Assembly: GCA_020073495.1 (NCBI GenBank)
Contig: JAIQFD010000001.1
Location: forward strand, 682,001 to 746,000
DNA from: Terriglobia bacterium
Lineage (GTDB): Bacteria > Acidobacteriota > Terriglobia > Terriglobales > Acidobacteriaceae
Reading direction: 5' to 3'
Length of the DNA: 64,000 nucleotides
Both the position numbers and the translations under genes were made by a program. Shown piece by piece: positions 42,684 through 51,304 of the stretch (position 1 is its first letter; each line of letters begins with the position of its first letter). The notes beneath the pieces were generated by a model. It was not told where the DNA came from and ran no database searches. It saw only the letters and a program-made list of their open reading frames with translations.

Positions 42684-43460
42684 ATGGAACAGCAGAAAAT
42701 CTCGGCGTTGGAGCATGCCCTGGGCCACCACTTTGGGCGGCCCGCACTCCTGGAACAGGCGCTCACCCACAGCTCACACGCGCACGAGTCGGAGGCACGC
42801 GCCGACGAGGGCCCCGGCGCCGCGGACAACGAGCAGCTCGAGTTCCTCGGCGATGCCGTGCTCGGCTTCGTGACCAGCCAGGTCCTGTTCGAGCGGTTCC
42901 CTCACTTCCAGGAAGGACAGCTCTCGAAGATGCGTGCCCACCTGGTGAGCGCGCGGCATCTCGTCCGCGTCGCCCGGGATCTCGACCTCGGCCGCTACCT
43001 GCGTCTGGGCCGGGGCGAAGAGAAGAGTGGGGGCCGCGCCAAGTCCGCCTTGCTGGTGGATGCGCTGGAAGCCGTATTGGCGGCGATGTACCTCGATTCC
43101 GGCATCGCAGTCCCGCAGCGCTTCATCGTCGAGCGCATCCTCAACCCCGAGTTGCAGCGTTTGGAGCAGCAGAGCGGCGGTGTCTTCCCGGTCACCGATC
43201 ACAAGTCCGCCTTGCAGGAGTTCCTGCAGGGCGGGGGTCGCCCCCAGCCCATCTACTCGGTCGTCAAGGAGCAGGGCCCGGAACATAACAAGCTGTTCAC
43301 GGTCGAGGTGCGGGTGCGCATGGGGACCAACGGCGCCGGAGACTACGTCACCCACGCCGAGGGGCCGACCAAGAAGACGGCGGAGCAGCGCGCCGCACGG
43401 CAGGCGCTTGCGGACTTGCGCGCGCTACCGGGGCAGGCGGCGCACGGAGCCGACGAATGA
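42684..43460 (+). CDS. rnc: Ribonuclease III
   Basis: A 258-residue endonuclease that cleaves double-stranded RNA, including rRNA precursors. The signature NEQLEFLGDAVLGF lies at about residues 49-62; the second acidic cluster is in LLVDALEAVLAAMYLD. A C-terminal double-stranded-RNA-binding domain follows (SALQEFLQGGGRPQPIYSVV, KKTAEQRAARQALADL). The stop overlaps the start of lepB (ATGA), so the two are coupled. Confidence 0.96.
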   Translation: MEQQKISALEHALGHHFGRPALLEQALTHSSHAHESEARADEGPGAADNEQLEFLGDAVLGFVTSQVLFERFPHFQEGQLSKMRAHLVSARHLVRVARDLDLGRYLRLGRGEEKSGGRAKSALLVDALEAVLAAMYLDSGIAVPQRFIVERILNPELQRLEQQSGGVFPVTDHKSALQEFLQGGGRPQPIYSVVKEQGPEHNKLFTVEVRVRMGTNGAGDYVTHAEGPTKKTAEQRAARQALADLRALPGQAAHGADE

Positions 43461-44299
43461 GCGAAGTGCCTCCCTACGCCCCCCCTCCGGAATCGTCCGC
43501 TCCGGCCCCCGCCCTCGAAGCGGCGCCGCAGCCCGCACTGCCGCCCGCTGACGTGCCCTTGCAAGAGCCGGAATCTTCCGGCGCCAGCATCCTCGGCTCG
43601 ACACAGTCCCTGAGCGTGACCGTCGTCATCGCGGTGTTTGTGATCACTTTCCTCGTACAGGCCTTCCAGATCCCGTCTGAATCGATGGAGAACACACTGC
43701 TGATCGGCGACTACCTGCTGGTGGATAAGGTCCGCTTCGGGCACGGCGGAGTGTGGGGAAGGATCCTGCCCTATCGCGAGATCCAGCGCGGCGACATCAT
43801 CGTGTTCCGCTACCCCGTCCATCCCTCGCAGCACTTCGTGAAGCGGGTGCTGGGTCTGCCGGGTGACCGCGTCCACCTGGTGAACAAGCGCGTCTTCGTG
43901 AATGGCCGGCCGGTCGAAGAAAACTACGTCGTCTACAACGGCCATGGGAAAGACGTCTACCGTGACGATTTCCCTTCCCCTGCCCATGCCGGCGGCTCTG
44001 TCGAGGCGCGCTGGTGGCTCCAGATGCGCAAATGGGTACACGAGGGCGAACTCGTCGTCCCCCCGGAAGCGTACTTCGTGCTAGGCGACAACCGAGACGA
44101 GAGCCTGGATAGCCGCTACTGGGGGTTCGTCCCGCGGGAAAACGTCATCGGCCGTCCCTTGATCATCTACTGGTCGGTGCGCCATCCCGACGGCCCTGAG
44201 AGCGCGTTCGCGGATGATACACTGTCGCGTTTCGCATTCGTGTTGACTCATCTGCTCCAGTTCACACGGTGGGACCGCACGTTCCGCATCGTGAAATAG
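43457..44299 (+). CDS. lepB: Signal peptidase I, paralogue 1
   Basis: A 280-residue membrane serine protease that removes Sec signal peptides. Residues 1-50 form a Pro/Ala-rich cytosolic tail. One transmembrane segment spans ~52-70. The catalytic Ser is Ser76 in IPSESMENTL, and the general-base Lys is Lys129 in HFVKRVLGLPGD. The box VLGDNRDESLDSRYWGFVPR is intact. It overlaps rnc by four bases and is followed by a second lepB. Confidence 0.95.
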   Translation: MSEVPPYAPPPESSAPAPALEAAPQPALPPADVPLQEPESSGASILGSTQSLSVTVVIAVFVITFLVQAFQIPSESMENTLLIGDYLLVDKVRFGHGGVWGRILPYREIQRGDIIVFRYPVHPSQHFVKRVLGLPGDRVHLVNKRVFVNGRPVEENYVVYNGHGKDVYRDDFPSPAHAGGSVEARWWLQMRKWVHEGELVVPPEAYFVLGDNRDESLDSRYWGFVPRENVIGRPLIIYWSVRHPDGPESAFADDTLSRFAFVLTHLLQFTRWDRTFRIVK

Positions 44300-44313
44300 C
44301 CGAAGGACAGCGC

Positions 44314-45096
44314 TTGGCCAAGAAGGCGAAAGAACCCGAAAAATCTGAGGGCAAGAAAAAGAAGCCGGAAGAAACTCCGGCCGAATTCGTCCAATCGCTG
44401 GCGGTCGTCCTGGTCACCGGCCTGTTCATCATCACCTTCATCCTCCAGGCGTTCGAGATCCCGTCGAGCTCCATGGAGGACACGCTCTTGATCGGCGACC
44501 ATGTGTTCGTGGACCGTGTGGCGTACGCGCCCCGGGCGCGGTGGGCCGGCCCGCTCATGCCCTACCGCGACATCCGGCGCAACGACATCGTCGTGTTCCT
44601 CTCGCCGGCCGAAGCCGGACTGTTCGTGGTCAAGCGCATCATCGGCGTCCCCGGCGATCGCCTTCACCTCAAGGACGGTAAGGTTTACCTCAACGGCCAG
44701 CCGCAGGACGAGTCGTACGTCATCCGCAGCCGGGGCGACTACAACCCCTACCGCGACAACTTCCCGGACCTGCCGCCTTCGTTCGGCACCACCATCACGG
44801 CGGACTGGAACCTGGCCATGCACTCCCACATCCAGGACAGCGACCTGGTGGTCCCCGCCGGCAGCTACTTTGCGATGGGAGATAACCGCGACATAAGCTA
44901 CGACAGCCGGTACTGGGGATTCATCCCGCGCGAGAACATCATCGGCCGCCCCATGTTCGTCTACTGGTCGTTCGAGACGCCAAAGGACCAATACCAGAAG
45001 ACCAGCATGGGAGACCGGCTGGCGTTCATTGGGAAAGTGGTCATTCACTTCTTCGACCAGACTCGCTGGCGGCGAATGTTCAAGCTGGTGCGCTGA
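44314..45096 (+). CDS. lepB: Signal peptidase I, paralogue 2
   Basis: A 260-residue protein. TTG at 44314 is preferred, since AAGGA lies 7 nt upstream and residues before it would overlap paralogue 1. It has a Lys-rich N-terminus, one transmembrane segment (~27-47), Ser53 in IPSSSMEDTL, Lys107 in FVVKRIIGVPGD and AMGDNRDISYDSRYWGFIPR. Both catalytic residues are present. Identity to paralogue 1 is moderate, so the duplication is old or the two have specialised. Confidence 0.93.
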   Translation: MAKKAKEPEKSEGKKKKPEETPAEFVQSLAVVLVTGLFIITFILQAFEIPSSSMEDTLLIGDHVFVDRVAYAPRARWAGPLMPYRDIRRNDIVVFLSPAEAGLFVVKRIIGVPGDRLHLKDGKVYLNGQPQDESYVIRSRGDYNPYRDNFPDLPPSFGTTITADWNLAMHSHIQDSDLVVPAGSYFAMGDNRDISYDSRYWGFIPRENIIGRPMFVYWSFETPKDQYQKTSMGDRLAFIGKVVIHFFDQTRWRRMFKLVR

Positions 45097-47744: not shown

Positions 47745-48707
47745 CTAAGAGGCGGCGGCCGCAGGCTGGCCGAAATCGACCTCCACCAGCGGGTAGCCCT
47801 TCTCTTTCCAGCCGAAGAAGCCGCCCAGCAGCGGCCGAACGCGCTGGATGCCCTTCGCTCTCAATTGCAGCGCCACACGGGCGCTGGTCGCTTCATTCGG
47901 TCAAGTGCAGTAAAGGATGATGTCCCGGTCGCGCGGGATCTCCTGGTGCCGCTGCTCCAGCTCCGCGGGCGCCATGCGCAGCGCGTTTCCGATGGTGGAC
48001 GGATAGGGCAGAAAATCGAGCGGGTGCCGGAGATCCACGATGAACACGTCCTCGCCACGCTCCAGCATCCCCTTGAGCTCTTCGGGGGTGATGCGCGCCA
48101 CCTCCAGCTCCTTCAGGAACGCCTTCCGCTGCCGGTACCGCCGGTAGATGTATAACCCGACCGCTGCGAACAGCAGCCAGATCAGGAAGGTCCCCACCTG
48201 GCCGACGTAAGCGGCGACGTCCTCCACCTGATGGCTGAAGATGTAGCCCAGGGCGCCGAAGGAGAAGGCCCAGAGCAGCGCGCCCAGCGCATCGAACAGC
48301 AGGAACCGGCCCAACCCCATGCGCACCACCGCCGACATGGGTGGCGCGGCCACGCTCAGCCCGGGAATGAACTTGGCCACCAGCAGTGTGCGCGGGCCGT
48401 ACTTGGCAAACACGTCCTCGGTGCGGCGGACACACGAATCGGGCTCCAGAGAGATGCGGCAGAGCAGCTCCAGTACCTTCGCCCCCCGGCGCCTTCCCAG
48501 CGCATACCACAGCAGGTCCGCCGCCACCGAGACCGCCACCGAGCCCAGCAGCGCTCCACCGGCATTCATGTGTCCCATGCCGGCCAGCACGCCCGCTCCC
48601 AGCAGCACCGGGACCGCGGGCAGCGGCAGACCCACCTGCTCCGCGAATACCCACGCGAACAGGACGACGTACCCGTGTTGCACCAGGAATTCGAGGATCT
48701 CTTTCAT
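47745..48707 (-). CDS. DedA-rhodanese fusion, candidate selenoprotein (in-frame TGA)
   Basis: The frame from ATG at 48707 reads 268 codons to a TGA at 47903-47901 and then continues open to TAG at 47745, giving 320 residues if TGA is decoded. Residues ~1-170 are a DedA/VTT membrane domain (FVQHGYVVLFAWVFAEQVGL-like start, TLLVAKFIPGLSVAAPPMSA). Residues ~210-318 are a rhodanese domain (FIVDLRHPLDFLPYP). Its active loop reads YC-T-[TGA]-PNEATSARVAL, then RPLLGGFFGWKEKGYP. The catalytic Cys is 267 and the TGA codon is 269; homologues known to me have CTCPNE here. A 7-bp hairpin downstream has SECIS geometry. The alternative is a nonsense mutation or sequencing error. Confidence 0.78.
47868..47886 (-). 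promoter_or_regulatory. Candidate bacterial SECIS element
   Basis: On the minus strand CAGCGCC (47886-47880) pairs with GGCGCTG (47874-47868) around the loop CGTGT. The loop begins 21 nt after the TGA and has G at its second position. Bacterial SECIS elements need an apical loop about 16-37 nt after UGA with a G among the first two loop bases. Confidence 0.6.
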
Positions 48708-48778: not shown

Positions 48779-49525
48779 CTAGAGGCGGTTGATCACGGAG
48801 GCGACGTATCCCGCGCCAAAGCCGTTGTCGATGTTGACCACGCTCACGTTGGAGGCGCAGGAGTTGAGCATTCCCAACAAGGCCGCCAGGCCTTCAAAAG
48901 AAGCGCCATAGCCCACGCTGGTGGGCACAGCGATCACCGGCACGCGCACCAGGCCGCCCACCACGCTGGGCAACGCCCCTTCCATCCCCGCGCATACGAT
49001 CACCACTCGCGCCCTGGTGAGGGCTTTGCGGTGCGCCAGCAGGCGATGGATCCCGGCGACGCCCACGTCGTAGACGTGCTCCACGTCGTTGCCCATCACC
49101 TCGGCCGTGACCACCGCCTCTTCGGCGACGGGGATGTCGCTGGTGCCGGCCGACACCACCGCGATCGTTCCCTTCCCGTACTTCTTCCGATCCTGCTGCA
49201 AAACAATGGCGCGCGCCAGCTCGTGGTACTCGGTCTTGGGTAACGCGGCATGCACGGCATCGTAGTGCTCGCGGGTGGCGCGCGTGGCCAGGACGTTGGT
49301 TTTGTGCCGCGCCAGCCGTGCGAAGATCTCCGCCACCTGGCCCGGCGGCTTCCCCGCCGCCAGCACCACCTCCGGCATGCCCGCGCGCAGCACGCGATGG
49401 TGGTCCACCTTGGCGAACCCTAGATCTTCGAACGGAAGATGCCGCAGACGCGAGACGGCCTCGTCCGCCGAGAGCTTTCCCCGGCGGACGTCTTCGAACA
49501 ATCTGCGGATGGATTCAGCCTTCAC
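48779..49525 (-). CDS. larB: Nickel-pincer cofactor biosynthesis protein LarB
   Basis: A 248-residue protein. The N-terminal part ([20 protein letters not shown]) precedes an AIR-carboxylase-like domain ([60 protein letters not shown]). LarB carboxylates and hydrolyses nicotinic acid adenine dinucleotide as the first step of the nickel-pincer cofactor of lactate racemase. larC and larE are not in the window. GTG at 49525 is chosen to match the family's N-terminus; a GTG at 49579 is also in frame. The DedA-rhodanese gene follows 71 bp downstream. Confidence 0.9.
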
Positions 49526-49618
49526 GGGAGCACTCGGCAATCGCCAATCAGCCAATGAGATTATCACCTCGACCGGCACTCCATGGGGTGAGTGCTGAAT
49601 GCTGATGGCTGGCTGTTC

Positions 49619-51304
49619 TCAGGCTAGAACGCGCTGCCGGGGGACGCGCGACCGCCGGACGACGTCGAAGTACATCTTCCTCGCCGAATCGGCGGCAGCC
49701 AGCTTGCGGAAGAACAATGCGCGGATGTACCGCTTCGACAGGCGTCCGGCGACGTAGGCGTCGTACAGCTCGCTGCCCAGCATGTGGCCGAGCTTCTCGG
49801 TGACGAAAACAAACCTCTCATCGCGGTAGCGGATGCCATCGCGCAGCAGTTGCGGCATCTGGAAGTATCGGCGAAAGTTTGTCTCCCAGTCCTTGTGCAG
49901 GACGAGGAAGTCGATCGTCTCCATGAACTCGCGGTAGCCGTCGAAGCGCTGCTCGACCGATTCGCAAGGCTGCGTGTACAGCGCGTACAGGTCTGCCTCG
50001 CGCACCGGCGGACGTTCGGGGCTGAGCACCCGCGAACCGAAATAGGCGAGCGCCTCTTCCAGCGTGCGCTGGTAAAAGACGTACTCGGCAAGGGCGTCGT
50101 CGCTTGGAGCGGCGGACTCCGTCACGCTCCCGGCCCACCCGGAGCACGCTGCGTGCACGAAGCGCACCGCCTCTTCGGCCCCGCCCACCATCTGGAACTC
50201 GCGCACGAACACCGTGTTGACCCGGGGCAGGTAGCAGCATCCGTGCGTTTTGAGACGCGTCAGGACCTCTCGTTGCTCGAGCTCCGTGGCGCGCTTGCGC
50301 GCCAGCTGGCGGCGCAGCTGGTCTTCGGCCGCCACGCTGCACACCTCCGGCATCTGGTCCACGAGATAGCGTGGCTGGGTGCCGTTCTGCGAAGCATAGG
50401 TATCGATGTGCAGGAAGCGTGCCATCGCGTCCACCAGGTTGTAGATAGTGGGCTCCAGGTCGGGCCCGGTCCGGCGCTCCTGCCGCCAGCGTTCGATGCA
50501 TTGCCGGTAACTCTCGTACTTCTCCAGCGGCGTGGCGTTGAAGGCGCAGACGACTCCTTCTGTTACCTGCACGGCTTCTACTCGGTCTACTTGCTCGCCC
50601 GCCGCCTTCCAGAACAGCGCGTCCACGTTCTGCAGGACGGTGAGCAGGCGGGCATCCGGCAGGCGCAGCCGCACCTGCTCCGGCAGATGGCCGGGCGCAA
50701 GGTGCGACTCGCCGAACAGCGCCACAACGGGCGCGCCCGGATGGCGCTCGCGGATCTCGGCCAGCTTGGCGGCGGCGTGGCGGTCTCGCGCCGCGATCTT
50801 GCGCAGGTCGTCACGCGGAGGGCAGTCCAATCCATACGCCGCGACTCCAGACCGCCGCGCCGCCTCCAGCACCCCCAGGAACGGCTCCCACTCGTAGCTC
50901 CACTCCAGGTCGAAGCGGATACGTTCCCGCAGCTCGTCGTTGTCGATCTCGCCCGCAAGCCATTCGTCCAGGATGTGCTGGTCGCGCGCGTAGATGAATT
51001 CGACGCCGAGCACGACCGGCTGCCCGGCCGCTCCCGACTCGTGGATGAGGTTAGCGGTGAATTCCTGCGAGCGTCGGAGGGAGTGGTAGTCGCCCACCAG
51101 CAGGACGTCGGAACTGCGGATCCTCCCCCGCAGCTCGCTTTCGCTGAGAATCGTCTCGTACGAGCGGTAGGAAGCGGCGAAATCGCGCAAGTATTTCCTG
51201 CGGCCATTGGGGTCAGTGGCCTGGATTTCGCGCTGCAATGCGGCCAGGGCGTGCAACTGTCCCGCGCTGCGGCGCCGCGATCGGATTCCCGCTGATGGCG
51301 CCAT
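49619..51304 (-). CDS. ChaN-like protein with long C-terminal extension
   Basis: A 561-residue protein. Residues ~40-260 match the ChaN/haem-binding uptake fold (SDVLLVGDYHSLRRSQEFTA, PVVLGVEFIYARDQHILDEW, PVVALFGESHLAPGHLP). ChaN proteins bind haem and are usually short lipoproteins. This one lacks a signal peptide and has ~280 more residues, which contain CCYLPRVNTVFVREFQMVGG and end in a basic tail (DVVRRSRVPRQRVLA). A different role from iron uptake is likely. Confidence 0.72.
   Translation of the reverse strand: MAPSAGIRSRRRSAGQLHALAALQREIQATDPNGRRKYLRDFAASYRSYETILSESELRGRIRSSDVLLVGDYHSLRRSQEFTANLIHESGAAGQPVVLGVEFIYARDQHILDEWLAGEIDNDELRERIRFDLEWSYEWEPFLGVLEAARRSGVAAYGLDCPPRDDLRKIAARDRHAAAKLAEIRERHPGAPVVALFGESHLAPGHLPEQVRLRLPDARLLTVLQNVDALFWKAAGEQVDRVEAVQVTEGVVCAFNATPLEKYESYRQCIERWRQERRTGPDLEPTIYNLVDAMARFLHIDTYASQNGTQPRYLVDQMPEVCSVAAEDQLRRQLARKRATELEQREVLTRLKTHGCCYLPRVNTVFVREFQMVGGAEEAVRFVHAACSGWAGSVTESAAPSDDALAEYVFYQRTLEEALAYFGSRVLSPERPPVREADLYALYTQPCESVEQRFDGYREFMETIDFLVLHKDWETNFRRYFQMPQLLRDGIRYRDERFVFVTEKLGHMLGSELYDAYVAGRLSKRYIRALFFRKLAAADSARKMYFDVVRRSRVPRQRVLA

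Follow-up and report, generated by a model that had tools for sequence, protein, structure and literature searches.

A DedA(VTT)-rhodanese fusion gene on the minus strand of the window (the whole 64,000-nucleotide stretch of DNA analyzed here) most probably encodes a full-length selenoprotein, a reading to which we give a probability of roughly 90%. In this protein, a DedA membrane domain would precede a rhodanese domain whose active-site loop reads Cys267-x-Sec269, with selenocysteine (Sec) insertion guided by an RNA hairpin. The gene occupies positions 47745 to 48707, with an ATG start at 48707 and a TAG stop at 47745 to 47747. Translated with TGA as Sec (U), it comprises 320 codons and contains a single TGA (positions 47901 to 47903, minus strand), which falls at residue 269 in the context ...DIILYCT-U-PNEATSARVAL... 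and is followed by 51 residues up to the TAG. The first-pass annotation of this region had given the same coordinates and frame and had placed the TGA two residues past Cys267, all of which proved correct. Taken together, the evidence below strongly supports the selenoprotein reading, in which selenium incorporation is predicted.

Both domains of the fusion are recognized by Pfam when Cys is substituted at residue 269 for the search. The VTT/DedA membrane domain (PF09335, VTT_dom; E = 1.2e-10, 42.3 bits against a cut-off of 33.9) covers residues 29 to 155 (positions 48243 to 48623, minus strand), and the rhodanese domain (PF00581; E = 1.9e-11, 44.7 bits against a cut-off of 22.2) covers residues 207 to 303 (positions 47799 to 48089, minus strand), so that the TGA falls inside the rhodanese match. 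Cys267 (codon at 47907 to 47909, minus strand), presumably the catalytic residue of the rhodanese loop, is invariant among 38 aligned members, as is Sec or Cys at position 269 (Sec being shown as C in the alignment); the loop in the present protein reads CTU. In an AlphaFold model built from 8 sequences (mean pLDDT of 78, pTM of 0.60), the N-terminal part is helical and the C-terminal domain has a rhodanese-like fold, in which residue 269 sits between a strand (residues 262 to 266) and a helix (residues 270 to 284). Foldseek comparison with the PDB, with 3tp9 as the best match, and a PDB sequence search both returned rhodanese domains for the C-terminal part; no entry named DedA was present among the best 50 of 252 PDB fold matches or the best 10 PDB sequence matches.

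The same TGA is present in the only other genome of the host genus that was examined, where the protein is 77% identical, and in many further genomes. In a first survey, all 61 genomes (the host included) matched the protein somewhere, and the matches listed comprised full-length fusions with exactly one internal TGA, stop-free fusions, DedA-only matches, and rhodanese-only matches. Wider searches matched 257 of 399 genomes across the class (E ≤ 1e-45) and 70 of 396 across the phylum (E ≤ 1e-40), tallies in which Sec and Cys forms are pooled with a small number of DedA-only matches. A pattern scan of GTDB 220 found close relatives (L014 to L020) in Acidobacteria, in Terriglobia, and in one Candidatus Methylomirabilota genome, where the gene lies on a 4.3-kb contig that may be misbinned. 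The window itself probably comes from Acidobacteriota, and within that phylum most likely from the class Terriglobia. Some DedA-only matches also contain one in-frame TGA (G011:C97:77780, G033:C1:773810, G038:C9:81160, and G043:C43:93642).

Extraction of codon 269 from 72 loci gave TGA in 57 and TGC or TGT in the remaining 15; these rows represent 68 different proteins (53 TGA and 15 Cys), as four row pairs are identical. The TGA occurs at the same place in two subfamilies, one with CTUP (mostly followed by NE or SE) and a more distant one with CTU[VQRL][RN]E. In 60 additional regions, picked mostly because they were listed as stop-free, codon 269 encoded Cys in 54, Ser in 4, and Arg in 1 and was TGA in 1, the Ser and Arg rows being distant relatives with 33 to 37% identity. 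The earlier expectation that stop-free orthologues would carry Cys at this position was thus borne out in 15 of 15 non-TGA members and in 54 of the 60 further regions. A quick tree built from the 72 proteins needs 2 changes of the Sec and Cys labels, compared with 13.9 when labels are shuffled. Adding further Cys genes gave a quick tree of 126 proteins on which several long branches are unsure; it requires at least 12 Sec/Cys changes, 4 of them forced by starred (well-supported) branches. The best-supported reading of these sequences is that Sec is exchangeable with Cys at position 269 and that one has replaced the other several times over.

The sequence past the TGA appears to evolve as part of the protein. 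Compared with the same-genus genome, the 41 codons past the TGA contain 12 synonymous and 2 nonsynonymous differences (Jukes-Cantor [JC] distances of 0.505 and 0.022, respectively), and the 62 codons ahead of it are similar, with JC distances of 0.735 (synonymous) and 0.074 (nonsynonymous). For six more distant pairs, nonsynonymous distances were 0.15 to 0.39 past the TGA and 0.24 to 0.36 ahead of it, and protein conservation was no higher past the TGA than ahead of it. The similar nonsynonymous distances on either side indicate that the tail evolves as protein-coding sequence at about an equal pace. The first-pass annotation had named unrelated disruptions past the TGA in close relatives as an observation that would count against Sec. 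We found none: the frame is open in the TGA-form relatives examined, no other stop lies inside the domain in the TGA-form members extracted, and the changes in the closest relative are mostly synonymous.

The host genome (a 3.7-Mb assembly rated 100% complete) contains all four selenocysteine genes for which a search had been proposed, each above its curated cut-off: selA (566 bits against 267.9), selB (373 bits over the whole frame against 242.25), selD (376 bits against 125), and the tRNA-Sec gene selC (65.5 bits against a gathering score of 47), which ARAGORN also reports as tRNA-SeC with anticodon tca. The host selD gene (L010, G000:C4:415672) likewise has a TGA in frame, within the sequence GUASK, so the genome has at least one further predicted Sec codon. 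This context fits the UxxK motif given for selenophosphate synthetase among the selenoproteins treated in the available part of PMC13188914, and the host SelD is therefore a second predicted selenoprotein. In the mechanism that we propose, SelB and tRNA-Sec would decode UGA269 as Sec, directed by a hairpin just downstream of the codon.

This hairpin (CAGCGCC-CGUGU-GGCGCUG; positions 47868 to 47886, minus strand) has a 7-bp stem, with 21 nucleotides between the TGA and the loop CGUGU and a G at loop position 2; the position, spacing, and loop G were all as first described. Its folding stability alone is unremarkable (z = −0.91, with 34 of 200 shuffles folding at least as well). We consequently set aside single-sequence stability as an argument, and the significance of the hairpin rests on the comparison of homologues. 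A search of the region with Rfam returned no SECIS family at E ≤ 10 and gave three weak, unrelated matches far under their gathering scores.

Among homologues, the hairpin is retained with the TGA. Across 46 dereplicated TGA genes, codons +6 to +10 past the TGA hardly vary, reading mostly AGC GCC CG[TG] G[TC]G GCG, and codons +7, +9, and +10 show zero variation at their fourfold sites, versus entropies of 1.0, 1.16, and 1.69 bits at the same sites in 15 Cys genes; neighboring fourfold sites in the TGA genes (+1, +4, +5, +11, and +12) vary, with 0.96 to 1.63 bits. Among distinct sequences, the five-pair core is intact in 49 of 50 with TGA versus 5 of 67 with Cys, and loop position 2 is G in 50 of 50 versus 18 of 67. 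Across all seven positions, TGA genes are 91.7% paired and Cys genes 68.6%. Of 45 distinct TGA sequences, 12 lack one of the two outer pairs and 13 the other, and in 10 others of these 45 the outermost pair is altered on both sides. None of 500 shuffles attained the covariation score of the TGA genes, compared with 61 of 500 for the Cys genes. One TGA-form gene (L045) has a compensatory change from G-C to A-U in which both encoded amino acids are altered. A selected RNA element is the best-supported interpretation of these patterns. One Cys-form gene (L104, in G223, a genome only 57% complete with no selB match) has the complete hairpin and apparently represents a recent change from Sec to Cys. 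The repeated natural Sec/Cys replacements, together with this Cys gene and its whole hairpin, make the family a good system for studying the loss of Sec.

We also compared the form of the gene with the presence of Sec machinery in each genome. In the first sample, selB was found in 24 of 26 TGA-form genomes versus 1 of 11 Cys-form genomes (Fisher P = 1.9e-6, with genomes counted without phylogenetic correction), and selA was found in 25 of 26 versus 1 of 11. Three TGA-form genomes of this sample are missing selA or selB, each having the other gene; G001, a TGA-form genome rated 100% complete, has no selA match. In a second sample of 80 genomes, in which codon 269 was read in 40 of 40 Cys genomes and 25 of 40 TGA genomes, selB was present in 37 of 40 TGA versus 14 of 40 Cys genomes (Fisher P = 9e-8, again without phylogenetic correction), the latter count including a partial match under the cut-off in G296. 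Pooling both samples gave selB in 61 of 66 TGA-form versus 15 of 51 Cys-form genomes; because the trees hold few Sec/Cys changes, such genome counts for selB and selA are not independent trials. The five TGA-form genomes in which the selB profile was unmatched are G025, G030, G138, G208, and G318, of which G030 is 96% complete and the other four are below 90%. Among Cys forms, selB is present in 2 of 22 genomes of the host's family versus 12 of 18 genomes of other families, and loss of the machinery therefore cannot account for every Cys form. Thus, the Cys form accompanies machinery loss in the host's family, and in other families Cys forms also coexist with the machinery. A single genome, G056, has two selB genes above the cut-off.

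Given the conservation of the gene and the content of the genomes, the best-supported reading of UGA269 is as a sense codon, and we predict with very high confidence that the residue inserted is Sec. Under the standard code, the fusion gene resembles a truncated DedA protein, and a standard ORF listing does end it at the TGA, after 268 residues, as it would if UGA were a true stop and the gene a decaying pseudogene with a broken rhodanese. This is highly improbable in view of the open frame past the TGA, the purifying selection evident against the same-genus genome, and the identical TGA in many genomes whose extracted TGA forms have no other stop inside the domain. A sequencing error is likewise very unlikely because the identical TGA appears in dozens of separately listed genomes; this recurrence, along with the coding constraint past the TGA, led us to reject both error and pseudogene as candidates. 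An open frame alone is silent on which residue is inserted, and an ordinary amino acid such as Trp or Cys might be placed at UGA by readthrough or by reassignment of the codon. We give this negligible weight, since the genome has tRNA-Sec, selA, selB, and a Sec-type selD, the stop-free orthologues have Cys and not Trp, and the hairpin is kept in TGA forms and rarely in Cys forms. Moreover, 19 of the 57 TGA-form genes terminate at a TGA stop of their own, so that UGA is both sense and stop within one gene; it has therefore not simply been reassigned, which favors context-dependent Sec insertion and disfavors general reassignment.

Termination competes with Sec insertion in bacterial selenoproteins generally, and UGA269 might act partly as a stop and partly as a Sec codon, with selenium supply setting the ratio of a short DedA protein, its rhodanese broken, to the full selenoenzyme and so forming a selenium switch. 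The membrane domain lies wholly ahead of the UGA and would be retained in the short product. That product would, however, break off within the active-site loop of the rhodanese, and in many genomes the Sec form is replaced by a Cys form, which is incapable of such switching. We consider a dual product unlikely.

The rhodanese part of the predicted selenoprotein resembles a described family. NF041203 (rhodanese_LYCAU), a rhodanese-related (seleno)protein, corresponds to rhodanese form 3, with a CxU motif, in the accessible part of PMC13188914, and like the present protein it has Sec two residues past the loop Cys. The model matches all 38 aligned fusion members at E ≤ 1e-5 (best, 3.1e-28) and is the best NCBIfam match of all four members examined, this protein included. 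The match of this protein (88.4 bits) is under the cut-off of 115, as are those of the three other members (76.7 to 82.2 bits), and no protein of the host genome reaches that cut-off. NF041203 is a 126-position model restricted to the rhodanese, whereas in the present protein a DedA domain lies N-terminal to it. In joining a rhodanese-type selenoprotein to another domain, it is also like TsoB (NF045694), a rhodanese/DsbD fusion-like selenoprotein with two Sec residues in a UxxxxU arrangement (PMC13188914), but it scores only 15.3 bits against the cut-off of 805 for that 572-position model. Four short matches that cover only the rhodanese and contain one in-frame TGA (G005:C20:220643, G028:C1:45651, G040:C50:126424, and G041:C54:31960) are possible standalone Sec rhodaneses.

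The first-pass annotation had suggested that a membrane-anchored DedA fusion with such a redox site would be new. This is true in part: the fusion itself is in print (PMC10127716 and PMC12893004) and CxU rhodanese selenoproteins have been named (NF041203, PMC13188914), while the use of Sec in such a fusion, and the distribution of this Sec form through Acidobacteriota, appear to be new, so far as the available parts of these sources go. We found no DedA-rhodanese selenoprotein or VTT-domain selenoprotein in the open-licence literature, and no DedA selenoprotein is named in the accessible portions of PMC13188914, PMC9312934, PMC2398784, PMC1088965, PMC12013277, PMC5029168, PMC6321198, PMC12893004, PMC1794560, PMC11237513, or PMC10127716. 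Two published counts, as far as those portions extend, may bear on the family: three selenoproteins in Occallatibacter riparius, which may or may not include this fusion family (PMC12013277), and four selenoproteins of three families in Acidobacteria in 2006, this family possibly among them (PMC1794560, Table 2). If true, the present reading extends selenoproteins to a DedA-type membrane fusion.

With respect to function, a membrane-tethered CxU sulfurtransferase or persulfide/disulfide oxidoreductase is the most likely identity of the predicted selenoprotein, and we infer its chemistry and substrate from the following considerations. Rhodaneses hold sulfane sulfur on the loop Cys, and Cys267 may accept sulfane sulfur as other rhodaneses do; Sec269 could then resolve the Cys267 persulfide or make a selenenylsulfide with Cys267. 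The ability of Sec269 to attack a persulfide or form a selenenylsulfide would favor either of these two activities, and we regard CxU thiol/persulfide chemistry as reasonably probable. Sec usually marks a catalytic residue, and its predicted presence at this site makes the link between DedA and rhodanese domains testable. The rhodanese domain probably lies on the cytoplasmic face, as judged by positive-inside reasoning from the YRRYRQRK segment past the last long predicted hydrophobic helix. A link between DedA and selenite was reportedly described by Ledgham in 2005.

The DedA domain contains an invariant Cys, Cys83 (codon at 48459 to 48461, minus strand; 38 of 38 members), and a near-invariant one, Cys92 (48432 to 48434, minus strand; 37 of 38 members), and the pair is present in Sec forms and Cys forms alike. 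More speculatively, the CxU loop could swap electrons with Cys83 and Cys92, linking redox or sulfur chemistry to transport. Two rhodanese-less DedA paralogues, L163 of the host genome (G000:C4), which has His at both positions, and L165 of G004, are without equivalents of both Cys residues; a third, L164 of G595, keeps both, and we therefore treat a relay from the Cys pair to the CxU loop as a hypothesis only. Coupling of the CxU chemistry to the DedA domain is accordingly a tentative proposal. Its more specific version, a redox- or selenium-gated membrane carrier in which the Cys267-x-Sec269 loop of a cytoplasmic rhodanese exchanges electrons or sulfur with Cys83/Cys92 of a repurposed DedA domain, and Sec chemistry is coupled to transport of something other than undecaprenyl (another lipid, for instance, or an oxyanion of sulfur or selenium), seems rather unlikely.

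The DedA part may instead be an ordinary undecaprenyl-phosphate flippase, with the rhodanese as a regulatory or detoxifying appendage. The protein does share a VTT domain with the UptA/DedA flippases and has weak matches to the NCBIfam UptA models (49.1 bits against a cut-off of 250). In the part of PMC10127716 available, known rhodanese fusions are placed in the COG0586 subfamily, the DedA-rhodanese link is called unclear, and four residues (Glu39, Asp51, Arg130, and Arg136 in YghB numbering) are given as typical of the undecaprenyl-phosphate flippases of COG0586. We mapped these residues from YghB to Escherichia coli DedA by residue spacing, without the YghB sequence, and then aligned E. coli DedA to the fusion. 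On this mapping, the Glu39 equivalent is kept (Glu23 in 37 of 38 members). The Asp51 equivalent is absent, as the GD of the E. coli DedA PGD lies opposite a gap and positions 32 to 35 are without an acidic residue in 38 of 38 members; the Arg130 equivalent is Lys112 in 38 of 38 members, which is basic but not Arg; and the Arg136 equivalent is absent, with Ser, Asn, Gly, Ala, or Thr in its place in 38 of 38 members. With two of the four named residues absent and one replaced, ordinary flippase activity is doubtful. By domain order (PF09335 and then PF00581) and by length, the protein is like published COG0586 fusions such as PA1209 of Pseudomonas aeruginosa, a DedA-rhodanese fusion of 311 residues (PMC12893004); unlike the predicted Sec here, selenocysteine goes unmentioned for those fusions in the accessible parts of PMC10127716 and PMC12893004.

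The genes around the fusion gene differ between lineages, so we drew no functional inference from them. Upstream of it on the minus strand are an AIR-carboxylase-domain gene (positions 48779 to 49579; Pfam AIRC), which we take to be LarB-like and which is possibly cotranscribed with the fusion gene, and a gene with a match to a ChaN/Tiki-type heme-binding domain (positions 49619 to 51304). Among the 72 loci, most with approximately 1.5 kb of flanking sequence, these two genes lie beside the fusion gene only in the two genomes of the host genus, and this confinement of the AIRC/LarB-like neighbor led us to drop operon logic as a functional clue. In another lineage, the genes upstream of the fusion gene are YceI (presumably of the polyisoprenoid-binding family) and nitroreductase (L017), nitroreductase (L025), or YceI (L077). 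Elsewhere in the window, on the plus strand, a tandem pair of signal peptidase S26 genes with a slight overlap (positions 43457 to 44299 and 44269 to 45096) is followed by an AsmA-family gene.
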